Origin: Acinetobacter sp. WCHA55
GTDB lineage: Bacteria; Pseudomonadota; Gammaproteobacteria; Pseudomonadales; Moraxellaceae
Assembly (NCBI RefSeq): GCF_002165305.2
Contig: NZ_CP032286.1
Span: forward strand, 1,860,001 to 1,924,000
Length of the DNA: 64,000 nucleotides
Direction: 5' to 3'
Positions 30,024-42,853 of the stretch are shown in pieces. The translations under genes and the position numbers were made by a program. The notes under the pieces are model-generated. The model had not been told where the DNA came from and searched no databases. It saw nothing but the letters and a program-made list of their open reading frames with translations. Numbering within the stretch: the first letter of the stretch is position 1; each line of letters begins with the position of its first letter.

Positions 30024-31076
30024 ATGTCTTTATTATTAGAACGCCTTGAAATTAAGCATCCTATCTTCCTTGCACCGATGGCCGGTGTTTCTACACCAGA
30101 GCTTGCAGCGGAGGTTTCAAATCAAGGCGGGCTAGGCTCACTTGGATTAGGTGCAAACACCGCAGAGGCCGCACGTACTCAAATTTTAAAAACCCAAGCA
30201 CTGACTGAACAACCTTTTCAAGTTAATTTTTTCTGTCATCAAAGCGTTGAACTTGATCCAACTGTCGCACAAACATGGATTGATTTTGTAAGTCCTCATT
30301 TTGAACAATATGATGCAGAACCACCCACTCAACTGCACTGTATTTATCCTAGCTTTTTGGACAACGATGAGTTTTTAAATGTCGTGCTTGAAACTCGTCC
30401 TAAAGCCGTGAGCTTCCACTTCGGTATTCCGCATCCGCATCAAATACAGGCTCTAAAAGACGCTGGCATTTTAACTATGGTTTCTGCAACCAACCTAGCG
30501 GAAGCGCGGGCTATTGAAGCAGCAGGAATTGATTTTATTATTGCTCAAGGCATAGAAGCAGGTGGACACCGCGGGATTTTTAATGAACATTTTGATAGTG
30601 CAATACGTACGGTCGACCTTGTACAACTTCTGACTCAGCACTGTCGGTGTCCTATTATTGCTGCAGGTGGCATTATGAATGGTACACAGGCTCAGCAAAT
30701 GTTAAGTCTAGGTGCGAGTGCGGTACAGTTGGGAACAGCTTTCGTACAATGTAAAACATCAAATGCCAATGATGCCTACCGTCATGCACTTTTCCATGAG
30801 CACATCACACAAATTAGTGCGAGTATTTCAGGTCGCCCCGCTCGGGGTTTACTCGGTCACTGGCATACTCAAATTGATCTACCAAACCGCCCTACGGTTG
30901 CTGCATATCCATACTGTTATGATCTAGGGAAACAATTACATGCCGCAGCGACCAAACAAGGTGATCAAGGTTTTGGCGCATTTTGGGCAGGTACGAATGT
31001 TTCGCAAATTCGTGCCATGGAAGCCCCTGACTTAATTAACCAACTGTTGGTTGAAATGCAACAAGTCAGTTATTAA
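30024..31076 (+). CDS. Nitronate monooxygenase family protein
   Basis: This 350-residue FMN TIM-barrel protein starts at MSLLLERLEIKHPIFLAPMAGVSTPELA, with a strong AAAGGAG site. Family signatures include SNQGGLGSLGLGA, FHFGIPHP, IAQGIEAGGHRGIF, and IAAGGIMNGTQAQQMLSLGASAVQLGTAFV. These enzymes oxidise nitronates such as propionate-3-nitronate to safer products. A convergent terminator shared with dusB follows. Confidence 0.9.
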   Translation: MSLLLERLEIKHPIFLAPMAGVSTPELAAEVSNQGGLGSLGLGANTAEAARTQILKTQALTEQPFQVNFFCHQSVELDPTVAQTWIDFVSPHFEQYDAEPPTQLHCIYPSFLDNDEFLNVVLETRPKAVSFHFGIPHPHQIQALKDAGILTMVSATNLAEARAIEAAGIDFIIAQGIEAGGHRGIFNEHFDSAIRTVDLVQLLTQHCRCPIIAAGGIMNGTQAQQMLSLGASAVQLGTAFVQCKTSNANDAYRHALFHEHITQISASISGRPARGLLGHWHTQIDLPNRPTVAAYPYCYDLGKQLHAAATKQGDQGFGAFWAGTNVSQIRAMEAPDLINQLLVEMQQVSY

Positions 31077-31092
31077 GTCACTCTATCTACTC

Positions 31093-31124
31093 AAAGCTCC
31101 ATAAATGGAGCTTTATTTATTTTG
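31093..31124. terminator. Hairpin terminator between converging nitronate monooxygenase and dusB genes
   Basis: The stem AAAGCTCCAT/ATGGAGCTTT is followed by a T-rich stretch. It reads rightward from the nitronate monooxygenase gene and overlaps the last codons of dusB on the other strand. Confidence 0.75.
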
Positions 31125-32142
31125 CTTCCAACAAATTGACCTGTTCAACTTGTACGTCATTCATGGTTTCACCATGGATAAGTAATTGGTCAAAGTAGTC
31201 TGCGACAACTTTGAATTGTTCAGTTGTACTTTCCACTTTGTACATGTTCTGACGAAACTCATTACTTGAACGTAAACCTTTGGTGTACCAAGCAATATGT
31301 TTACGTGCGATTCGACAACCAGAGTATTCCCCGTAAAATGTGTACAGTTCAGCAAGATGTCCAAGTAGAACTTCTTTTACTTCTTGAATACTTGGTGCAG
31401 CCAAATGTTCACTCGTCTCCAGATAATGCGCGATCTCACGAAAAATCCATGGACGCCCTTGCGCAGCGCGACCAATCATAATTGCATCTGCACCAGTATA
31501 ATCGAGCACATATTTGGCTTTTTCTGGACTATCAATATCCCCATTCGCAATCACTGGTATATGAATGAGCTGTTTGACTTCTTTAATCAAATCATAACGA
31601 GCCGTATTCAAATACATGTCTTCACGGGTTCGGCCATGCAATGCCAACGCTGCAATACCCGCCTCTTCAGCACGTTTCGCTACACGTAAGATATTTTCAT
31701 GCCCATTTAAGAAACCCAAACGCGTTTTCAGTGTGACAGGTACATCAACTGCAGCCACAACTTCATCCAATATTCGAGCCACCAAGTCTTCATCTTTTAA
31801 AAGTGCAGAACCCGCCAGCTTATTACAGACTTTCTTGGCAGGACACCCCATATTGATGTCCACAATTTGAGCACCATTTGAAACCTGATATTGTGCAGCT
31901 TTCGCTAAATCTTTGGGATCTGATCCTGCAATTTGTGCTGAAATAGGCGCCAATTCACCATCAAAATTAGCACGATATAAGCTTTTTTTACTCATCAGTA
32001 ACGTTTGATCTGATGTCATCATTTCACTGACAGCATGCCCTGCACCAAAGTATTTGCATAGCGATCTAAATGGACGGTCAGTTACGCCTGCCATAGGAGC
32101 CACAATCAAATTATTTGACAGTTGATACGGACCAATATACAT
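31117..32142 (-). CDS. dusB: tRNA-dihydrouridine synthase B (DusB)
   Basis: This 341-residue protein begins MYIGPYQLSNNLIVAPMAGV and has QIAGSDPKDLAKAA, the catalytic Cys in INMGCPAKKVCNKLAGSAL, IANGDIDSPEKAKYVLDYTGA and GRAAQGRPWIFREI. These match DusB rather than DusA or DusC. It makes dihydrouridine in tRNA with FMN and NADPH. The 5' region is repeated at the far side of the accessory island (41529-41655), including a 23-codon remnant of its first residues, so this locus has been a recombination point. Confidence 0.95.
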   Translation of the reverse strand: MYIGPYQLSNNLIVAPMAGVTDRPFRSLCKYFGAGHAVSEMMTSDQTLLMSKKSLYRANFDGELAPISAQIAGSDPKDLAKAAQYQVSNGAQIVDINMGCPAKKVCNKLAGSALLKDEDLVARILDEVVAAVDVPVTLKTRLGFLNGHENILRVAKRAEEAGIAALALHGRTREDMYLNTARYDLIKEVKQLIHIPVIANGDIDSPEKAKYVLDYTGADAIMIGRAAQGRPWIFREIAHYLETSEHLAAPSIQEVKEVLLGHLAELYTFYGEYSGCRIARKHIAWYTKGLRSSNEFRQNMYKVESTTEQFKVVADYFDQLLIHGETMNDVQVEQVNLLEAK

Positions 32143-32230
32143 ATGAATTCATCACTTTTTCGACCGGCACAGTATACTGCATCTATACTTTCGGCTCATC
32201 TTTTATCATGTGTTCTGTGACTATGAAATA
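32104..32230. repeat. Left copy of the island-flanking repeat (dusB 5' end plus intergenic)
   Basis: This 127-base stretch spans the first 13 codons of dusB and the following intergenic sequence. It matches 41529-41655 base for base without gaps at a fixed offset of 9425, with about 20 mismatches (about 84% identity). Conserved blocks include ATTCATCACTTTTTCGACCG and ATCATGTGTTCT. The copy ends in ATGAAATA, which aligns with the start codon of the gene at 41648. IS5 sequence follows after 9 bases. Confidence 0.85.
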
Positions 32231-32239
32231 CTCAAAATA

Positions 32240-33308
32240 GGCTTTGTTGCATAAAGATTTAAAAGATAGAGCTTTTCTAAGTTGCTCAAATTTAAGTGAC
32301 AACTTGGGTATGAGGTCGGCGCAATTCTGTGAATTTATTTAACACGGTTATACGTGCATGGACTTCATTGAGTTGACTGTCAAAACTCCTTGCACTGAGT
32401 TTATCGCCTGAGAAGCACTGCTTCGTAAGATTTGATGCAATGCATCTTGATTTCGACCAAACTACGTCGATGATAACCAGTCCACTTTTTCCAAAGCATT
32501 CTTCCTAGATGTTTAATCCTTTTCAATAACTCATTTCTCTCTAAAGATCCCAATTTCTTATCTTTCCATGGTCTTACATTTTTTCTGGGCGGAATCACTG
32601 CATGTGCTTTCCGATCTGCAATGACCTGTCGGCATTGTTTCGTGTCATATGCTCTATCCGTATAGACAGAATCAATACACTCATCAGATGGGATTTGATT
32701 CAACAGAACATCCAAGACTTGTGAATCACTGACATGATTTGTTGTGAGCTTTACAGCTCGTATTTGCAAGGTTTTAGCATCTATACCAATATGTAGTTTA
32801 CGCGATTGCCGACGATATTTAGGCTGATGTTTCTTGCGTTTCTACTCACCTTCGCCTAGAAATTTAAGGCCAGTTGAGGCTATCAATAAATGTAATCCTT
32901 CATGACTTTTTTGATAGCTGATCGCAATATCAATCTACTTTTGTCGTCGGCAAAGTGTGGAATACGAATATCACTGATATTCGGTGCTGTCCAACTTAAC
33001 CCACTGAGTTGAATTAGGCTTTGCACAAGGCCAGTGACCATACGCAAAGAAAGTCGAAAGATAGATTTGATCATCAAACAGCACTGAATTGCTGTATCAA
33101 AATAGGTTTGATTTCTTCCATGCTTAGCTTGTGGCTGAGCATACCATTTAGTCTGAGGATCGAACCAAATTGAAATATTTCATCGCTTGATTAGAGCTTG
33201 GTTATATGAGGACCAATTCGTTGTACAATAAATTTTAGATGCAGGCTTCTTCATCTGGAAATTATATTGATGAAGAAGCCTTTAAGAATTGCTTTGTGCA
33301 ACAAAGCC
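32240..33308 (-). mobile_element. Degenerate IS5-family element (IS427-like)
   Basis: This 1069-base element is bounded by inverted ends GGCTTTGTTGCATAAAG (left) and its near-complement at 33292-33308. TA appears on both sides, a possible 2-base target duplication. It carries a broken transposase on the minus strand. The right end lies two bases beyond the stop codon of the ZnuD-like receptor, so insertion spared that gene but removed any terminator. Confidence 0.85.
32292..33254 (-). pseudogene. IS5-family transposase, inactivated
   Basis: The reading frame can be followed through NISIWFDPQTKWYAQPQAKH, IKSIFRLSLRMVTGLVQS and TDRAYDTKQCRQVIADRKAH to RRPHTQVVT. It is broken by a TGA where Gly is expected just before NISIW, by a disrupted stretch after SWTAPN, by a TAG in place of Trp in GEGEWKRKKH, and by a frameshift after KMHCIK. 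At least four lesions make it non-functional. The DDE-type fold pieces identify the family. Confidence 0.85.
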
Positions 33309-33310
33309 TA

Positions 33311-35671
33311 TTAAATATGCATCGTTATGCCTAATTGGAAAGCTCTGCCTGGTAAGGGTGCAATATATTTCAATGGAGAGTTTTGCGGCCGTGCATCTTC
33401 ATTCAGCAAATTAGAGCCATTGATAAAAAGATCAAAACTGGCGTTTTTCAACGTCACTTTTTTACGAATGTCTAAATCAAGCAGATTGTATGCAGGCAAT
33501 GGGACTTCCTCCCCCACATTTTTACCTAGGTAACGAGGCTTATCGTAATAAATACTAGACAGGCGTGCTGACCAATTTTCTAATGTCCACTCAACATTTG
33601 CACCATAGCGGTTGGTTGGCATATTGGGCAAATAGATTCCATCATTGGCTAAACGTAAACGATCAGGATCTGTCGCTTTATTTTTGACCAAATCTGAAAA
33701 GCCACCTACTTTTAAATCCCCAAAGTTGTCGAGAGAAAATGTATGGTTCATATCCAACTCAAAACCATTCACTTTTGTATCGGTTTGCTTCCAATACTTC
33801 AGTGGTAAACGGTTCCGCATAGAGGCACCTGAGTGGGACAAATACAGATAGTCCTCAAAATCCATTTGGTACAATGAAACTACAATATTGGTCGAGCCCC
33901 AATTCAGAGTGGTTATAAACTCTACACCCTGCATGACTTCTTTGTTGAGTTTTTGATTTCCTTCTTCTTGGGTCATCACTGAGTAGTGAGGGTTACTGGC
34001 GTAGAGTTCATTGATTTCAGGTGCTCGTTCAGACTCACTGTACTGAAGTCTGAAACCCAAATAGTCTGTAACTCTAAATTCTGATCCGATATAAAAACTA
34101 TTCAGACCAAAGGACTTATCTTCAAGCGTGCTATTTGAAGCATTACGCGCCAACTTAAAGCTTTGGTCCTGAATCTCATCTTTAACTTTCTCGACACGAT
34201 AACCAGCATCAAATGAAAATTGATTGAAATCTAGTTTTTCCTGAATGAATATCGCATGAGAAGTTGTATTCACATTCGGTAAATAACGTTCTGAACCAGT
34301 GCCCTTAACCTGTCTGGCATTTATAGACGTCCCTATTTCGCCAGTGAGATTTTTATAAGGTATGTGTTCAAATAGAAACTCCGCAGTATCAGTATCAAAT
34401 TTATACTCATTGGCTTTACTTGCACCAATGTACTCTCCAGATGTGTTTGACAGTCTAGATGCTTTAAAGTGAACACTCTTCAGTAGATTTGATGGCTCTC
34501 TAAACAGTGAATCTAAGGTGAAACGATCCTGTTCAATTTTTACCCCCACAGGTAAGCCATCACTATAAGAGCTCTGAAAAGATTTGTTTTCCATAGAAAA
34601 ACCTGGAACACCATATTCACTACTTTTATAGTCGGCACTCACGCCGATATAACCACTGTTTAAGAAATAAGTTGTCCCTATCGCCATGTTTTCATTTCTA
34701 GCATAGCTGTTACCCAGTTTCTTTTTATAATTCGGCGTTACATCATTGTTAATTTTATTCTGTACATACTTAGCCGTGCCAGGCACATAATCTGGGTTCG
34801 GATCATTAATAAACTCTTTTAATGAACCATTTACATACCGTTTTGAGATTGCCTCATCTGTGTATTTAGCAGACTCTAAACCATCATAATAATCATAGAA
34901 ATTTTCTGGGTTCTTCGCGATATCCTCTAAAACGTGCTTATCTAAATACTGATTATGTGCTTTATTAAACATATTTGAGATCCGAGAGTCTCTTTGACAT
35001 GCACTTGCTAATGCGGAGTTTACACCTCCAGTACTCGGAAAAACCGCTGTATCACATACTGTAGCTTTGCTTGATCCTGGTATTTTATACGAAGAAATAC
35101 TCTGAGTTGAGAACTGAACATTTGTGCTTAAGTTTTTTTGATTGTTTATATTTAAACGAATACCGTGTGCATTAAAATCATTAAACCCTTTGTTATAAGC
35201 GATATCTAAGCTTCGACTTTTATCTTCCAACTCTTTTGAAATCAGCCCAGTATCAATATCAACACTACCTCCAATGGCGTTCCCTCCATATCTAACTGAA
35301 TTTGTGCCTTTATGAACGGTAACACTTTTCGTAAAGAGCGGATCAAATGGAATATTAATATCACCACTTATGGCATTCATCCCATTAATCGTTTGGCCAT
35401 GCTCAAGGATACTCACTCTATTACCCGATAAACTGCGTATCACGGGTGCACCAGCATTTGGACCAAAGGATGTACTTTGCACTCCTGAAATATGTTTAAG
35501 TGCATCTCCAAGTGTATTTGATACTTCGATTCTCTCTTTCTCTACAATAACTGAAGTCTTTTCGGTCTTATCCGCTTGAAAAACAAGCGTATCTAAAGCT
35601 TTAACATTTTGCTCTGCATGTGCCTGTTGAATAATCATCAAAATAAGCGTCATCAAAGATGTGTGTTTCAT
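33311..35671 (-). CDS. ZnuD-like TonB-dependent receptor
   Basis: This 786-residue outer membrane receptor has a signal peptide ending AHA. Its plug domain follows (LGDALKHISGVQSTSFGPNA, APVIRSLSGNRVSILEHG, VTVHKGTNSVRYGGNAIGGS), closest to the ZnuD zinc receptor group. The barrel holds the late motif ASNPHYSVMTQEEGNQKLN. A long loop near residues 205-310 has two cysteines (ATVCDTAV, ASACQRDS) and is not His-rich. A strong Zur box precedes the gene, supporting zinc uptake. It ends MHI rather than the usual aromatic residue. It lies within the accessory island. Confidence 0.85.
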   Translation of the reverse strand: MKHTSLMTLILMIIQQAHAEQNVKALDTLVFQADKTEKTSVIVEKERIEVSNTLGDALKHISGVQSTSFGPNAGAPVIRSLSGNRVSILEHGQTINGMNAISGDINIPFDPLFTKSVTVHKGTNSVRYGGNAIGGSVDIDTGLISKELEDKSRSLDIAYNKGFNDFNAHGIRLNINNQKNLSTNVQFSTQSISSYKIPGSSKATVCDTAVFPSTGGVNSALASACQRDSRISNMFNKAHNQYLDKHVLEDIAKNPENFYDYYDGLESAKYTDEAISKRYVNGSLKEFINDPNPDYVPGTAKYVQNKINNDVTPNYKKKLGNSYARNENMAIGTTYFLNSGYIGVSADYKSSEYGVPGFSMENKSFQSSYSDGLPVGVKIEQDRFTLDSLFREPSNLLKSVHFKASRLSNTSGEYIGASKANEYKFDTDTAEFLFEHIPYKNLTGEIGTSINARQVKGTGSERYLPNVNTTSHAIFIQEKLDFNQFSFDAGYRVEKVKDEIQDQSFKLARNASNSTLEDKSFGLNSFYIGSEFRVTDYLGFRLQYSESERAPEINELYASNPHYSVMTQEEGNQKLNKEVMQGVEFITTLNWGSTNIVVSLYQMDFEDYLYLSHSGASMRNRLPLKYWKQTDTKVNGFELDMNHTFSLDNFGDLKVGGFSDLVKNKATDPDRLRLANDGIYLPNMPTNRYGANVEWTLENWSARLSSIYYDKPRYLGKNVGEEVPLPAYNLLDLDIRKKVTLKNASFDLFINGSNLLNEDARPQNSPLKYIAPLPGRAFQLGITMHI

Positions 35672-35691
35672 TTTTCACCCCATTAATAAAA

Positions 35692-35714
35692 GAAACGTTA
35701 TAACATAACATTTA
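35692..35714. promoter_or_regulatory. Zur-box operator upstream of the ZnuD-like receptor
   Basis: The 23-base site, centred on GTTATAACATAAC, matches about 20 of 23 positions of the enterobacterial Zur consensus. It lies about 20 bases upstream of the receptor start codon, as expected for a zinc-repressed promoter. Confidence 0.75.
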
Positions 35715-35903
35715 ATAAATTAAAAAAAGTATTCTAGAGGTTCTTTGTTCTGTGTATAAATGAAACTATTTCAAAAAGAAGAAAAGCCATCCTAGTGCGC
35801 TGAACCCCAGAATGGCCTTGTTCAGAATATTGATCCTAAATGTATAATTTCAAGTGTTTAACTTAAAAATTAATCCACTTATTTAAGTTTAGCTTAAAAC
35901 TAG

Positions 35904-36905
35904 TTAAAAGCCTTCCAAAACGATTTTTCCTTTCGCTCGGCCAGTTTCAATCAGTTCATGAGCAAGTTTTAAATTTTTTGCATTAATTTTACCTAAAGTC
36001 TGATTCAGCGTAGTTTTAATTTTATGGCTATCCACCAATTCTGCAACCTGATGTAAGAGCTGAGATTGTTGTTCAATATCTGTTGTATTGAACATTGAAC
36101 GTGTAAACATAAACTCCCAATGCACAGAAACTGACTTAGACTTAAACGCACTGATATCCAATGATTTCGGATCATCAATTAAGCCAAACTTTCCTTGTGG
36201 AGCAATTAACTTAGAAATTTGAGGAATATACGTTTCTGTTTGATTCGTTGAAAAAATATATCGAGGTGCATCTAAACCCAATGCTTTGATTTGCGTGTTT
36301 AAATCTTCGGTATGATCAATAACATAGTCAGCCCCTAAAGACTTAACCCATGCTTTAGTCTCTTCCCTAGATGCTGTAGCAATAACTTTTAAATTTGTCT
36401 TCGCTTTGAGTAATTGAATCGCAATAGATCCTACACCTCCAGCGCCTCCAATCACTATAATATTATCAGCTTTGTCTAAATCAACGTTGAAACGATCAAA
36501 TAACATTTCCCACGCTGTAATAGCGGTTAATGGCAGTGCAGCCGCTTCAGCATCACTCAGGCTTTGGGGTTTTAAGCTAACAATCCGCTCATCGATTGCT
36601 TGATATTCAGCATTACTCCCATCCCGAGTTAAATCACCTGCATACCAGACCGGATCTCCGACTTTAAAATATTGCACACCAGAACCGACTTCAACAACCT
36701 CACCCACTGCATCCCATCCTAAGATACGTGTGTTGCCTGCTGCGACAGGGTTTCGCCTCACCTTAGTATCGACAGGGTTAACCGAAATCGCTTTGACTTT
36801 AATCAACAAATCCCGATCATTTAAGCTCGGTATCACTTTTTCGATATCTATCAGTGGATTTTGAAATCCATGATCCATACCGTCAATATAAGAAATAGCC
36901 TTCAT
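35904..36905 (-). CDS. Zinc-binding-alcohol-dehydrogenase-family NADPH:quinone oxidoreductase
   Basis: This 333-residue medium-chain dehydrogenase has an N-terminal GroES-like domain (VKAISVNPVDTKVRRN, ILGWDAVGEVVEVGSG, VGDPVWYAGDL) and a Rossmann fold with the NADPH motif GGAGGVGSIAIQLLK. Zinc-binding cysteines are absent, as in quinone oxidoreductases. It is transcribed divergently from an HxlR-type regulator, a pairing known for reactive-electrophile or quinone stress genes. The regulator is now split by an insertion, so this gene may have lost its normal control. Confidence 0.9.
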   Translation of the reverse strand: MKAISYIDGMDHGFQNPLIDIEKVIPSLNDRDLLIKVKAISVNPVDTKVRRNPVAAGNTRILGWDAVGEVVEVGSGVQYFKVGDPVWYAGDLTRDGSNAEYQAIDERIVSLKPQSLSDAEAAALPLTAITAWEMLFDRFNVDLDKADNIIVIGGAGGVGSIAIQLLKAKTNLKVIATASREETKAWVKSLGADYVIDHTEDLNTQIKALGLDAPRYIFSTNQTETYIPQISKLIAPQGKFGLIDDPKSLDISAFKSKSVSVHWEFMFTRSMFNTTDIEQQSQLLHQVAELVDSHKIKTTLNQTLGKINAKNLKLAHELIETGRAKGKIVLEGF

Positions 36906-36929
36906 TCACTTATCCTCTTGTTTTGTTAT

Positions 36930-36943
36930 TTAAGTTTACTTAA
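36930..36943. promoter_or_regulatory. Palindrome in the divergent HxlR/oxidoreductase promoter region
   Basis: The perfect inverted repeat TTAAGT-TT-ACTTAA lies between the divergent starts. A partial second copy (TTAAGTTA) is at 36953-36960. It is a plausible operator for the HxlR protein. Confidence 0.5.
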
Positions 36944-37231
36944 TATTCTTTTTTAAGTTATACAGACAAATTCGTCTTATAGTTACCAAAAGGATACTAT
37001 TGAAATGGGTAAGCTCAAACATTCGCGTTTTGATTGCACACCAGGATGCTCTGTTGAAGCTGCTATAGGATTACTTGATGGTAAATGGAAGAGTATTATC
37101 TTATGGCATTTATTAGAAGATGATGTTTTAAGGTTTAATGAACAGAGATGGATCCGTAAATTTGAACAACTCCTATAAGTGATATTCTGCTCCTCAAATG
37201 ATGTTATAAACATCAATATATGGAGTATTTT

Positions 37232-37537
37232 ATGGCACGTAGACCAAGAAGAAATCATTCAAATGATTTTAAAGCTAAGGTAGCACTTGCTGCGATTAAA
37301 GCAGAAAAAACACTTGCTGAATTGAGTGCTGAGTTTGATGTTCATCAAAACCAAATTATTGACTGGAAAAATCAATTGATCTCAGCTTCCTCGCAAGCTT
37401 TCGATCAATCAAAAGCTCCAACAGAACCACCCATCGATCTAAAAAAACTACATGCAAAAATCGGTGAGCAGGCATTAGAAATTGATTTTTTAGAAGGTGT
37501 GTTGAAGAAACTGGGCCGCTTCAACCACAAAAGTTAA
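37232..37537 (+). CDS. IS3-family transposase OrfA
   Basis: The protein has 101 residues with a basic helix-turn-helix N-terminus (MARRPRRNHSNDFKAKVALA, then LAELSAEFDVHQNQIIDWKN) and a C-terminal leucine-zipper-like helix (LHAKIGEQALEIDFLEGVLKKL). Several heptad leucines support dimerisation. It binds the element ends and forms the first part of the OrfAB fusion. Confidence 0.92.
   Translation: MARRPRRNHSNDFKAKVALAAIKAEKTLAELSAEFDVHQNQIIDWKNQLISASSQAFDQSKAPTEPPIDLKKLHAKIGEQALEIDFLEGVLKKLGRFNHKS
37486..37492 (+). other. Programmed -1 frameshift site (slippery heptamer)
   Basis: TTTTTTA is in the correct phase (T TTT TTA) in the orfA frame, at the junction where orfB begins. This is a classic slippery heptamer for IS3-family OrfAB production. 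Confidence 0.8.
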
Positions 37538-38364
37538 TCGACGACTCACTTCAGATTTCAGTATCTAAGCAAGCTAAGCTGCTGAAAGTCTCCCGTGGTT
37601 GTTATTACTATCGCCCAAAACCTGTGAGTGCATCAGATCTGAAGCTGATGCGATGTATTGATGAATTACATATGCAATATCCTTTTGCAGGCAGTCGTAT
37701 GATGCGTGATTTGTTGAATCGTCAAGGACATCATATAGGACGACGTCATACACGTACTTTAATGAAGAAAATGGGTATTCAGGCGTTATATTGCAAACCA
37801 AATTTAAGCCAGGCTAATCAAGCTCACCGTAAATATCCATATCTGCTCAAAGGGTTGGCTATTCAGCGCAGTAATCAAGTGTGGTCTACGGATATAACGT
37901 ATATCCCTATGGCAAAAGGCTTTGTTTATTTATGTGCTGTGATTGATTGGCATAGCCGCAAGGTACTTGCGCATAGGGTATCGATTAGTATGGAGGTGGA
38001 TTTTTGTATTTCGGCTTTAAATGAAGCGATTGAAAAATATGGTCGACCTGAAATATTTAATACAGACCAAGGCAGCCAGTTTACCAGTGATGCATTTATT
38101 GATGTATTGAAATCAAATGGCATTCAAATCAGTATGGATGGTAAAGGTCGATGGGTAGATAATGTGATGGTTGAACGATTATGGCGGAGCGTTAAATATG
38201 AAGAGGTGTATCTCAAAGCTTATAGCAGTGTCACAGATGCGAAAAAGCAATTAAGTGCATATTTTGAGTTTTATAATTTGAAACGACCTCATTCGAGTCT
38301 AGACAAAATGACACCAAATGAGTTTTACTATGATCAGCTACCCCAACAAAACAAGGTGGCTTAA
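37486..38364 (+). CDS. IS3-family transposase OrfB, made as OrfAB by -1 frameshifting
   Basis: The frame is open from just after an upstream stop at 37483. It encodes an rve-type integrase core after QISVSKQAKLLKVSRGCYYY. The DDE residues are in WSTDITYIPM, NTDQGSQFTS and the Glu of RLWRSVKYEEVYLKAY. The C-terminus is RPHSSLDKMTPNEFY. No disabling stop is seen. A GTG at 37624 could give a shorter free OrfB. Confidence 0.9.
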   Translation, partial: FFRRCVEETGPLQPQKLIDDSLQISVSKQAKLLKVSRGCYYYRPKPVSASDLKLMRCIDELHMQYPFAGSRMMRDLLNRQGHHIGRRHTRTLMKKMGIQALYCKPNLSQANQAHRKYPYLLKGLAIQRSNQVWSTDITYIPMAKGFVYLCAVIDWHSRKVLAHRVSISMEVDFCISALNEAIEKYGRPEIFNTDQGSQFTSDAFIDVLKSNGIQISMDGKGRWVDNVMVERLWRSVKYEEVYLKAYSSVTDAKKQLSAYFEFYNLKRPHSSLDKMTPNEFYYDQLPQQNKVA

Positions 38365-38797
38365 CTAGAGCGGAATATCACTTATAAATACGCTTTTAGT
38401 TGTTCAAACAAGTGGGACCACCTCTAACTGAGGAAGAAAATTCCAAATGTCACTCAAAAAATGCTCACTAGACAATTACGTGAACTTGAGGAGGATCAAC
38501 TGATTCTACGAAAGGTTTATGCCGTTGTTCCACCTAAAGTAGAATATCGATTATCTACACTCGGCACTTCTTTAGCACCTATTTTGGTTGCATTAAAACA
38601 ATGGGGGGATAAAAATATTGGTTTATTTGGGAAACCCATTATGCCTTTAGAATCAGAATAAAACTTCAATCTGTTTTACGTCACTTACAGTCCAATATTT
38701 TCTAGAAATACTGTTGTTTCATAGCTTACACACCATTTCAGTAACTTCTATAAAAAGCACGTTCTTAAAAACCGCTATGTATAAAATTAACCGACCA

Positions 38798-38828
38798 TAA
38801 AAAAGCCTAATCTGTGAAGACTAGGCTA
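38798..38828 (-). terminator. Hairpin terminator downstream of the decayed tRNA
   Basis: The stem AGCCTA/TAGGCT, extended by TCT/AGA, is followed leftward by a T-run. It lies 20 bases after the 3' end of the tRNA copy, as in a normal tRNA gene unit. Confidence 0.65.
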
Positions 38829-38848
38829 TAAACTTTGAATCTTTTCGT

Positions 38849-38924
<76 letters not shown>

Positions 38925-39342
38925 TCAACGAGTTAGCCTTATACGCCCTAAGCACACACAAAGCAAACTTTATTTGTAATATAAGCAGTTATTACATGAG
39001 CAGCATAAAAATACTAGCGCTTAACCAATACTTGCTTCAGTGATGAAAGGCTCAAAAGTGCTTAATCTTGTTTTTTTCACTGTCTAAAAACGACTTACGC
39101 TCTTCAGACCATATTGATTTCCTAAAATCAAGACCCGAATTACTTGAAGCCCAATCAGAAACTGTACTTTAAACAAAAGTATTATCAGCGAAAACTAATT
39201 TTGTCTTCCTTCCTACACTACTTATAAAAACTTTATGTGTAGGCAAGAAACCAAATATACTTATTTGGGTATAATGTATTCATAGGTTTCAGACATAGAA
39301 AAAGTACTTAAACGACAGCCCCACTATACCATTTTAACTCTT
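38925..39342. other. Intergenic stretch in the island
   Basis: I see no gene with a start and a ribosome binding site. On the minus strand a frame of about 38 codons without a start (around 39054-39167, reading VSDWASSNSGLDFRKSIWSE) looks protein-like and may be the tail of a lost gene. Otherwise it is AT-rich. Confidence 0.4.
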
Positions 39343-39372
39343 GAAAAAGCCCACCATTTGGCAAGCTTTTTC
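39343..39372 (-). terminator. Intrinsic terminator of the 42-residue lipoprotein gene
   Basis: The stem GAAAAAGC/GCTTTTTC has a loop of about 14 bases. It begins directly after the stop codon and ends in T residues read leftward. Confidence 0.75.
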
Positions 39373-39501
39373 TTATTGATCTTTATCCATAGAATGTGGT
39401 GTTGTGGTTTTATCCTGCTCTTTCGTATCTGTATCTCTTTTTTGGCATGCCGTTAATCCAAGCATTAAAACTAAACTTACTATTGCAAATATTTTCATCA
39501 T
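39373..39501 (-). CDS. Very small lipoprotein (42 residues)
   Basis: The peptide begins MMKIFAIVSLVLMLGLTACQ, a typical lipoprotein signal with LTAC and the lipidated Cys at residue 19. Only about 24 polar residues follow, Lys/Asp/Thr-rich and ending HSMDKDQ. An AGG site lies just upstream and a terminator sits right after the stop. The entire gene is below usual size cut-offs. The function could resemble entericidin-like toxins, but that is a guess. Confidence 0.65.
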   Translation of the reverse strand: MMKIFAIVSLVLMLGLTACQKRDTDTKEQDKTTTPHSMDKDQ

Positions 39502-39602
39502 TTTTGCCTAGCACGATTTAAAAATATAACTTATCAAAATCTAAAAATTTGAATGTTTAATTTATGAAACAACCTCATTCTCTTTCTTTACAAATTAGGT
39601 AC

Positions 39603-39872
39603 CTAGCGATTTAGAGCTTTCTGAGCCCAATGAATAAATTTGTCCTTTTCATGGAAATGAGGAATATTTAATAAGTGAATATGAGTAACCTCACCGAAAT
39701 TACCTGAAATTATATTGGGTGCCAAAACAATAAAATCGCTCTTGTCCCCCACATGTAACTCCCTAAAAAACTCCATAACTTTAAAATGAAGATTCAGAGC
39801 GGCGAATCCCTCCCTTTCCATTAGAAAGTCGTAGATCTGGCTGAGTATATGTAGTTCAAATTTTTTGTTCAT
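39603..39872 (-). CDS. Hypothetical protein
   Basis: The 89-residue protein begins MNKKFELHILSQIYDFLMER and has a central VGDKSDFIVLAPNIISGNFG segment, with a His-rich turn (IPHFHEKDKFIHWAQKAL). It has no signal peptide or transmembrane segment. I do not recognise the family. It lies in the island beside a phage-type gene and may be phage-derived. Confidence 0.55.
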   Translation of the reverse strand: MNKKFELHILSQIYDFLMEREGFAALNLHFKVMEFFRELHVGDKSDFIVLAPNIISGNFGEVTHIHLLNIPHFHEKDKFIHWAQKALNR

Positions 39873-40130
39873 CTTATTCTATTCTCATATTTATTTTAAC
39901 GATCGGTACAATTTAACCTAATTTTATTTTTTGTTAAAGTAGAGAAAAAACAACCTCTGTAGAATCAATTGAACTGGGTTAATGAAATATCATTGTCAAA
40001 TTTTATTTTATTCTAAAAAAAATCTAACGTAAGAACACATTAAATACAAATGATTCTCAATTAATATTATCTTAATTTTAAACATAATACCCTAAATGTG
40101 CCTCCTCATCCCTATTGCAAACGCTCTACA

Positions 40131-40427
40131 TCACTTATCAAAAATAGCGGGCTTACGATATAAATTAAGCAAAGAGAGTACAGGTATCGGTAGGTAGTTA
40201 CCATTCACTGAAGTCTCTCCCCCATCTTTTCTGTGCTGCTCCCAGTATTCAATTAATAGTAAAGCAGCCTGTTTAATGGCAGATGGATATTCTGATCCAA
40301 AATTATCTGTAATATAATTTTTAATTATAGCGTCAGCAGCAACAATAAAGCTTTTTAATGAAACATCATTGCTATCATCGGCATAGTGTAAGTGGCGCTT
40401 CACTTCATGTAATTCAACAATACTCAT
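40131..40427 (-). CDS. Phage gp6-like head-tail connector protein (orphan)
   Basis: The 98-residue protein starts MSIVELHEVKRHLHYADDSND and has the helical pattern of the gp6-like connector family: SLKSFIVAADAIIKNYI, then a short loop and AIKQAALLLIEYWEQHR, ending LSLLNLYRKPAIF. In tailed phages it forms a ring between the portal and the tail. No other phage structural gene is near, so this is a leftover of a decayed prophage. Confidence 0.8.
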   Translation of the reverse strand: MSIVELHEVKRHLHYADDSNDVSLKSFIVAADAIIKNYITDNFGSEYPSAIKQAALLLIEYWEQHRKDGGETSVNGNYLPIPVLSLLNLYRKPAIFDK

Positions 40428-40715
40428 AAATCACTCCATTTTTCCGAGTCAGCTTACACTTTCATCACTAAACTCGTTCCTAGAGTCTTTTACGGTGTCA
40501 TAGCAAATATCACAATTTCACCTCATTTCTATTCTCATATTGATTACATGGCATTGAAATCCCTTTATCTAGGGATTTTTCTACTATTGCTAATAAATCC
40601 TTCAAAAGATTTTTTATAACCAAATTAAGATTTGTTCATATCATTTTTCAGTAAGGCCATTACGCCCTAAAGATTGAGCCCCCTTAACAACCAAGCAATA
40701 AAATTAATTGCCACT

Positions 40716-40747
40716 AAAAAACCCGCTTTATGTAGCGGGTTTTTTTA
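40716..40747 (-). terminator. Terminator after the cold-shock pseudogene
   Basis: The stem AAAACCCGCT/AGCGGGTTTT has a T-run on the leftward strand; this lies 15 bases beyond the stop. It also has a T-run on the rightward strand. Confidence 0.85.
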
Positions 40748-40761
40748 ATTCGCAGTATTTT

Positions 40762-40971
40762 TTAGATTACTGTGATAGAGCTTGCTTGAGGGCCTTTTTT
40801 GCCAGCTACAATCGTAAACTGAACACGTTGACCTTCATTCAACACTTTGAAACCGTTTGACTGGATTTCGCTAAAGTGTGCAAAAACGTCTTCTCCAGTA
40901 TCGCTAGAAATAAAACCAAAACCTTTAGTTTCATTAAATCACTTAACGGTACCAGTTGTAATGTTTGACAT
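40762..40971 (-). pseudogene. Cold-shock protein (CspA family), interrupted by a nonsense codon
   Basis: The 70-codon frame reads MSNITTGTVK, stop, [24 protein letters not shown] and continues to the end in full agreement with CspA proteins. TGA replaces the conserved Trp (TGG) of the VKWFN motif at codon 11, a single-base change. RNP1 (KGFGFI) and RNP2 (VFAHF) motifs are intact. There is no usable start after the stop, so the product is probably lost. Confidence 0.9.
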
Positions 40972-41495
40972 AAATATTCTCTTAAATTTTGAAAAATATA
41001 AGAATTAATATTTTAAATCATATACATCGGGTAAACCGCAGATTCAAATAATGTGCGAGATAACTTTAGTAAATACAATAAATAATTCAGATATACCGTC
41101 ACTATAAGCTTTTTATTGTGTAATAGATAGGTGTTAACATATTATTTTATTACTCTCCCCTAACTCCACATGAAATGCTTTTTTATCCATATTGATAAGA
41201 AAATCTTCACTAAAATCAAAAAAAGCTTGTTTAACAGCTTCTAGCTAGTAGTTTTTTACTAGTATCAACTCAACTTGATAGGTAACGTCCTATATTTTCA
41301 TTTCAGCATGTCGCCAAAAATTAAAGCAGGGCTATCCCAAATTTTTTAGAGAGTCCATACAGTCTATTTCGGGCTTGATTGATTAAAAAAGAATATTTAA
41401 AAATGGAAGCGTCATGAGTTAAGCTCCCCTTAAACTATTGCTTAAATTCTGTACCAAAATAAAACCGATAACAGACTGAATAATATTCATTCTTT
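40972..41495. other. AT-rich stretch at the right edge of the island
   Basis: There is no complete gene. The first part presumably was the long 5' leader of the cold-shock gene. On the minus strand a startless frame of about 36 codons (near 41139-41250, with KQAFFDFSEDFLINMDKKAF) looks like the end of a lost gene. No integrase or attachment sequence was recognised. Confidence 0.4.
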
Positions 41496-41567
41496 TTAAC
41501 AACCGAACCCACCTAACATCGGAACAATAATCAAATGATTTGACAGCGTATACCGACCAATATACAT
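41496..41567 (-). pseudogene. Truncated remnant of the dusB start
   Basis: The first 16 codons translate as MYIGRYTLSNHLIIVP, matching the true DusB start (MYIGPYQLSNNLIVAP), then diverge into MLGGFGC and a stop. It is in the same orientation and position relative to the repeat as intact dusB at 32142. It marks the right-hand junction of the inserted region. Confidence 0.8.
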
Positions 41568-41655
41568 ATAAATTCATCACTTTTTCGACCGACATAGTAT
41601 ACTGCACCTGCTGTTTCGGCTCACCTTATATCATGTGTTCTCTGTTTATGAATAA
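41529..41655. repeat. Right copy of the island-flanking repeat
   Basis: It is the partner of 32104-32230 (about 84% identical, gapless, offset 9425). It contains the dusB remnant, the intergenic spacer and the first two codons of the DUF1615 lipoprotein gene. Divergence between the copies is clearly higher than expected from a recent local duplication. Confidence 0.85.
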
Positions 41656-42853
41656 AAAGCTGTTTCTTTCTTCTGGTTTAAAAACGCTAAGTGTCTTGGC
41701 CATATCTATAGGCTTAACTGCCTGCGGTGATCGTTCATGGTGGACAGATGATGAGCCTAAGCTCAATGCTGAACAAATCGCACGCATCATTCCCGGACGT
41801 GTAAATGACCGCCGTTCATGGGCTGAAGATATTTACGATATTTCAGAGCAGTTTGGTATTCCGCAAAATAAAGAGAATATGTGTTCGATCATTGCCGTGG
41901 TTGATCAAGAGTCTAACTTTGTTGCAGATCCGCAAGTTTATGGTTTGGGTGAAAAAGCGGTGAAAGAAGTACAAGATCGTTTAGATGAAAAATTTAAAGA
42001 TAAGCTCGGCGATGCCATTGGTGGCACCATCGCAGGTTATTTCCAACAGGTTTTAAAAGAGCAACCGAGTCCTGAAGATAACTACTTAAGTCAAATGCGC
42101 CGCGTTAAAACAGAACGTGAACTGGATGAACTGTACCGTGAAATTTTTGACTATATGTCAAAGCATTATCACGTCAGCGCACTCACAGGCGCAGCGAAAC
42201 TTGTCGGTCAGGACGTGGGTGAAAAAATGAATCCGATTACCACGTTGGGTTCAATGCAAGTACACATCGGTTATGCCAAAGACAATAAACGTGAAGGTGG
42301 CAGCATGGCTGACTTACGTACTGACCTTTATAGTCAATATGGTGGTCTGTACTACGGCATCCACCGACTGATGATGTACCCTGCTGACTATGACAAACCC
42401 CTTTACCGTTTTGCCGACTATAATTCAGGTATGTACTCAAGTCGAAATGCAGCCTTCCAAAGTATGTTGAATGACTTAACTGAAGCTGAGCTTGATTTAG
42501 ACGGTGACTTGTTACTTTATGGTAAAGATGGCTCACCTAAATCTGCAAAGAGTCAATCAGAACGCGAACTCATCAGTGTTTTCGCCCAGCATAATATTTT
42601 GGTTACTCCACGTCAAATTCGCTCTGACCTGAAAAAAGAGAAAGAGAAAAAATTTGAAGATACAGCAACCTATCGCGCTGTGACTAAGCTTTATCAAGAA
42701 GTCACTAAAAAAGAACCTTTCTATGCCATGATGCCAGAAGTCGTCATTTCTGGTCCAAAGCTCAGCCGTGACTATAATACCAACTGGTTTGCCACTCGTG
42801 TCAATGGACGTTATCAAACATGCATGCAACGTGCAAAGCACATAAAAATCTAG
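41648..42853 (+). CDS. DUF1615 family lipoprotein
   Basis: The 401-residue protein starts MNKKLFLSSGLKTLSVLAIS with lipobox LTAC (Cys near residue 25). The body contains the family landmarks RIIPGRVNDRRSWAEDIYDI, SIIAVVDQESNFVADPQVYGLG, TTLGSMQVHIGYAKD, GGLYYGIHRLMMYPADYD and FADYNSGMYSSRNAAFQ. The DQESNF segment and the overall layout resemble lytic transglycosylase-like folds, so a cell-wall role is possible, but the activity is untested. A longer frame from 41540 runs through the repeat and was rejected. The HAD gene overlaps its 3' end by 34 bases. Confidence 0.88.
   Translation: MNKKLFLSSGLKTLSVLAISIGLTACGDRSWWTDDEPKLNAEQIARIIPGRVNDRRSWAEDIYDISEQFGIPQNKENMCSIIAVVDQESNFVADPQVYGLGEKAVKEVQDRLDEKFKDKLGDAIGGTIAGYFQQVLKEQPSPEDNYLSQMRRVKTERELDELYREIFDYMSKHYHVSALTGAAKLVGQDVGEKMNPITTLGSMQVHIGYAKDNKREGGSMADLRTDLYSQYGGLYYGIHRLMMYPADYDKPLYRFADYNSGMYSSRNAAFQSMLNDLTEAELDLDGDLLLYGKDGSPKSAKSQSERELISVFAQHNILVTPRQIRSDLKKEKEKKFEDTATYRAVTKLYQEVTKKEPFYAMMPEVVISGPKLSRDYNTNWFATRVNGRYQTCMQRAKHIKI

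Follow-up and report, generated by a model that had tools for sequence, protein, structure and literature searches.

A native dusB start beside what is most likely the relic of a dusB-specific element in Acinetobacter sp. WCHA55

Between dusB and its chromosomal neighbour, a DUF1615 gene, Acinetobacter sp. WCHA55 carries an island flanked by two diverged copies of the dusB start and its spacer, which raises the question of where each copy comes from and how dusB came to have a native start beside an insert. We addressed it in a 64,000-nt stretch of contig NZ_CP032286.1 (positions 1,860,001 to 1,924,000; hereafter the window). Elements specific for dusB were reported by Farrugia et al. 2015 (PMC4482086): according to excerpts of that paper, the dusB island of A. 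baumannii ACICU has a 19-bp attachment site, supplies an alternative dusB 5' end and was seen by PCR to excise, and dusB islands are much rarer than dusA islands.

Self-comparison of the window showed that the two copies (32087-32227 and 41512-41652) match without gaps over 141 nt at 83% identity; a reading made earlier from the sequence only had given 127 gapless bases at about 84%, a real match that proves slightly longer. Used as a query against its own genome (E <= 0.01), the left copy found two places, itself and the right copy (E 3.2e-36), and the repeat is therefore not a chance match. The ATG that the left copy reaches (32223-32225) aligns with the DUF1615 start codon, as the sequence-only reading had said. 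That reading was also right that the right copy retains the start of DusB; the number of codons kept, down to the attachment core at 41510-41528, is about 20 instead of some 16. The features at the two ends are the following, the nativeness of the window's dusB start having been judged against 30 altered genomes and native ones:

31117-32142, minus strand: intact dusB of 341 aa whose start and spacer are native (ORF; Pfam Dus, E 2.9e-98)
32087-32227, no strand assigned: left repeat copy, dusB codons 1-18 and spacer up to the ATG aligned with the DUF1615 start
41510-41528, minus strand: worn attachment core, attR (comparison with G043, G168 and viral contigs)
41512-41652, no strand assigned: right repeat copy, displaced native dusB codons and spacer of DUF1615
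41648-42853, plus strand: DUF1615 gene, the chromosomal neighbour of dusB in empty sites (Pfam PF07759, E 1.1e-108)

Between the copies we recognised:

32240-33308, minus strand: IS5-family insertion sequence at the left joint, frame broken (89.5% match, query 16-1084; Pfam DDE_Tnp_1)
33311-35671, minus strand: TonB-dependent receptor, 786 aa, open frame (ORF, Pfam)
35904-36905, minus strand: zinc-type dehydrogenase, 333 aa, open frame (ORF, Pfam)
37005-38661, plus strand: HxlR-type regulator split by an insertion (second piece by Pfam; the first, ending at about 37142, by eye)
37143-38426, plus strand: ISAba14 (IS3 family), which splits the regulator (99.8-100% to annotated ISAba14)
38769-39360, minus strand: phage-type block with tRNA-Met at 38849-38924 (ARAGORN; 79% to a region of G105)
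40131-40427, minus strand: phage head-tail connector/adaptor gene (Pfam PF05135, E 1.9e-9; PHROG 40, E 2.5e-15)

The island had been described as mostly decayed foreign genes, which is half right: the receptor and the dehydrogenase are open, and the remainder consists of the two IS elements, the split regulator, the tRNA-Met, the connector gene and worn DNA, such as that between the connector gene and the right copy. The 89.5% match of the IS5-family element is to one on an A. baumannii plasmid. The connector gene is the sole phage protein gene recognised inside the island, and is accompanied by the phage-type tRNA-Met block, whose counterpart in Acinetobacter sp. ANC 4204 (G105) has neighbours that match phage families (DnaC-like helicase loader, replication initiation, repressor). 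The TonB receptor is probably later cargo; original phage cargo was considered and rejected, its nearest relative (92%, in G104) not being at dusB. That relative (G104:C13:890465-892822) lies at another chromosomal place with ISAba14 directly adjoining. The tRNA-Met gene of the island (38849-38924) was rejected as the genome's sole such copy: it is a fifth one, the other four standing in a tandem cluster elsewhere.

To place the locus in the genus, DusB and DUF1615 were located in 175 Acinetobacter genomes, the genes being called adjacent when under 300 bp lay between the matches and the dusB start altered when the DusB match began only at residue 8-12. Empty sites, with a native start and adjacent DUF1615, were found in 97 of the 175 genomes (in the 93 of these that belong to a 150-genome table, the matches are 80-119 bp apart). 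The start was altered in 74 genomes: in 48 the two genes are linked but 0.4-122 kb apart (46 at 0.4-80 kb, two at 92 and 122 kb), and in 26 they are unlinked, i.e. on another contig or in a changed gene order. One tRNA-modification gene thus appears to be widely taken over by phage-type elements across the genus, with the limit that some of the 74 altered starts, in several distant species, may be ordinary divergence of the DusB N-terminus; these and the 26 unlinked genomes give weaker support. No genome among the 175 combined an altered start with an adjacent DUF1615 gene. A native start with the two genes apart occurred in four: this genome (9505 bp), ANC 4204 (3010 bp), G046 (19828 bp) and the MAG Candidatus A. 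avistercoris (G004; 440 bp). A re-count on 80 named loci that overlap the census (those kept out of 94) gave 50 empty, 12 altered, 2 native but apart and 16 without dusB in reach. The repeat was matched at one place in 124 genomes and at two places in three (this one, ANC 4204 and G046), in each of which dusB and DUF1615 are apart; among these 127 genomes (48 of the 175 gave no match) there was none with both copies and no island, a combination that the sequence-only reading had set against an integrated element.

The altered loci show what an element at this site does to dusB. The dusB side was inspected in 30 of the 74, and in each of these the conserved VAPMAG follows an unrelated start of the VI..LFD type; a native dusB start or a remnant of it adjoins DUF1615 in most right ends inspected. 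The inserts of A. kyonggiensis ANC 5109 (G043; 47 kb) and A. towneri 5-2Ac02 (G168; 61 kb) carry beside dusB a tyrosine integrase of 534 and 538 aa, respectively, with phage tail or lysis genes nearby. A search of 30 of the 74 altered genomes, on the dusB side or through the whole insert, gave six full-length hits, seven genomes with fragments and 17 with none, frames being seen open in G043 and G168 only. Relatives of the dusB-type integrase occur in Burkholderia phages DC1, BcepMigl, BcepIL02 and AH2 and in Pseudomonas phage H66, all among the phages with such an integrase in the excerpts of PMC4482086.

Viral contigs supplied the attachment sites in each arrangement. L188 is an attP, the integrase and element start being contiguous there with the core and the element end; L196 is of the same type, without an integrase in the 2 kb examined. 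L189 and L190 are attL with dusB, and L192-L195 are attR, in which native start, core and element end lie beside DUF1615, whole or cut by the contig end. L188, L192 and L193 were retrieved without a pattern containing the element end; the pattern that retrieved L194-L196 contained it, so that these three are no independent evidence for that end. Inserts shrunk to about 0.4 kb (G020, L035) and 0.6 kb (G164, L037) still have the element-type dusB start; an element-supplied start can thus outlast most of its insert.

The right end of the window's island agrees with this pattern. On the dusB strand, the native sequence of the right copy ends exactly after AGGTG and is followed, as in G168 and L188, by GGTT, with which the element end begins at 41509 and runs downward. 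The break falls at the core that is also used in G043, G168 and the viral contigs, and so at the dusB attachment site, the reading of this worn junction as attR being based on its position and a short match of 4/4 (5/7) bases. The junction is clear in 3 of the 19 separated right ends inspected (this genome, G043 and G168). Together, the attR-like end, the connector gene and the phage-type tRNA point to the island being, most likely, the relic of a dusB-specific element. The earlier proposal of an old element at the dusB 5' end is supported, with the right copy as the displaced native start; dusB as a target is already in print in the excerpts of PMC4482086.

The left end does not mirror the right one. 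The native dusB start and spacer stand there in place of attL, so attachment repeats at both ends are absent, as is an element-supplied dusB 5' end in the window. Given this native start, the island is a relic and not a complete member of the dusB-specific dus-associated-integrase (DAI) elements. Nor did any dusB-type integrase match at E <= 1e-6 within 31001-42000, in keeping with the earlier statement that no integrase remains, and the island would not be expected to excise as a circle without integrase and attL. At the left joint itself, the IS5-family element covers the window's junction, and neither a joint nor microhomology is readable in ANC 4204. Two candidates for that joint in ANC 4204 were tried. 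A DUF1615 coding remnant past the start codon of the left copy was rejected, its score of 10, against shuffle means of about 7, being reached by 441 and 397 of 2000 shuffles; an IS end suspected by eye at this same place had no match among plasmids.

We then considered the kinship of the copies. A tree was built from 33 rows and 121 columns, with 22 hand-picked native rows and with the worn copies of G004 left out. In the best tree, this genome and ANC 4204 pair both by their left copies (87/79) and by their right copies (97/91), and all four join with modest support (89/63); the two copies of G046 pair as well (89/58), its right copy forming a long branch. Pairing of the copies within each genome was not rejected (AU p 0.17 and 0.12). 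From the best-tree pairings, the copies look lineage-local and are probably older than the split from ANC 4204. The two genomes have the flanks in common and no cargo: between them ANC 4204 carries a regulator of the GntR-aminotransferase type and an EamA transporter. Over its first 300 nt, the window's dusB is closer to G087 (91%, 87%) than to ANC 4204 (83%, 82%), a weak hint of a donor from outside the lineage, towards G087, for the dusB 5' half, which speaks against a donor of the same lineage. In G046 (L045, L065), the native-start dusB and DUF1615 are separated by about 20 kb that includes several TerD-family genes and one that is TerC-like.

The reading that we favour, with a probability of about 0.6, is a recombination event in which an empty-site allele from the same lineage gave dusB its native start back and eliminated attL and the integrase. 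By comparison of the loci, a phage-type element whose integrase was specific for dusB once integrated across the core in codons 14-20 of dusB, so that the native start and its spacer came to lie at the far end of the insert, next to DUF1615, as the right copy and attR. The recombination would have followed in a common ancestor with ANC 4204: an empty-site dusB-spacer-DUF1615 allele from that lineage would have replaced the element's dusB start, attL and integrase end and been joined to the element near the DUF1615 start codon, perhaps from DNA taken up by the cell, through a homologous joint on one side and a non-homologous one on the other. As a result, dusB would have recovered its promoter and start, and the element would have lost the means to excise; later IS insertions and cargo exchange would have eroded the insert in a different way in each species. 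What the loci show by comparison is the integration, the shift of the native start, the native start that dusB has now and the loss of attL and integrase; the route by recombination is what we infer. Homology-facilitated illegitimate recombination occurs during Acinetobacter transformation, and a homologous anchor in dusB combined with one joint without homology would give the layout of the window; no microhomology joint is readable in the window, where the IS5-family element covers the place, or in ANC 4204.

Four other histories were weighed against this one. A wrong excision could have taken along attR, the spacer and the DUF1615 start and lost the integrase end, the circle then reintegrating homologously in an empty-site cell, which would leave, in order, native dusB, spacer, DUF1615 stub, element, attR, spacer and DUF1615. 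This gives the same layout and accounts both for the loss of the integrase end and for the left copy stopping close to the DUF1615 start, but it requires a second rare event and no joint between DUF1615 and the element interior is readable, so that we regard it as unlikely. Copying within the chromosome, by which the attR side (native start and spacer) would have been copied back to dusB without outside DNA, is distinctly improbable: it suits lineage-local copies and a within-genome pairing that is not rejected, but its anchor would be the shared core of about 20 bases only, and in the best tree the left copies form one pair and the right copies another.

The sequence-only reading had suggested that the left copy came with the element, in an attP with a native-like dusB 5' end and spacer, and dus-targeting elements do supply 5' ends (PMC4482086, excerpts). 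The elements found at this site speak against it, however: all 30 element starts inspected and both attP-type sites, L188 and L196, carry the unrelated start, and the four viral contigs with a native start adjoin DUF1615 and are thus attR. Moreover, the left copy is native and extends across the host spacer as far as the DUF1615 start codon, a length of spacer that a phage would have no reason to carry, and the best tree groups the left copies with the right ones and with those of ANC 4204, in the same lineage, with modest support. We therefore regard this suggestion as very improbable. Plain local duplication without integration, later filled by transposons and cargo, is scarcely credible: the copies are lineage-local, so that the tree outcome named beforehand as speaking for duplication was found in part, two IS elements and unrelated cargo lie inside, and ANC 4204 has the same flanks with none of the cargo, but the right copy breaks off at the attachment core, where an attR-like end follows, phage genes lie inside the island, and the dusB/DUF1615 pair is opened in 48 other linked genomes.

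Like the pAICU30 island of A. baumannii ACICU, a dusB-specific DAI element, the window's insert lies in the dusB 5' end, its attachment core has 19 bases (compared by length, not letters) and its intact relatives supply an alternative dusB 5' end; unlike pAICU30, it is a relic without integrase and attL, beside a native dusB start (PMC4482086, excerpts). The new part is this native start beside attR, the target itself being known; the excerpts of the open-licence literature on Acinetobacter dusB islands contain no case of a native start regained beside a retained insert. Such a case suggests that a native start may return without removal of the insert, so that the element is disarmed and its cargo kept. 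Tentatively, and at slightly less than even odds, hosts would repeatedly reclaim an annexed gene start while the insert stays, with at least two separate cases (one in the common ancestor of ANC 4204 and this genome, one in G046, perhaps another in G004). If this is true, the return of the native start fixes the element in place, preserves its cargo and leaves two copies as a scar that can be read in other genomes.

The dusA islands of A. baumannii D1279779 and G08 follow the same principle, integration in a dus gene with replacement of its 5' end (PMC4482086 and PMC6070778, excerpts), in another dus gene. The genome of the window holds, outside the window, a 380-aa integrase relative beside a dusA-type gene (G000:C7:2887823-2888962, L191), probably a dusA island. 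The dusB-side integrases (534-538 aa; L066:5376-6980, L068:1609-3225) are about 150 aa longer than this one at the C-terminus, and the extra part had no Pfam match. By eye, the GTATACT motif of the spacer is kept in most right ends, even in those without a dusB remnant, and it may belong to the DUF1615 promoter.
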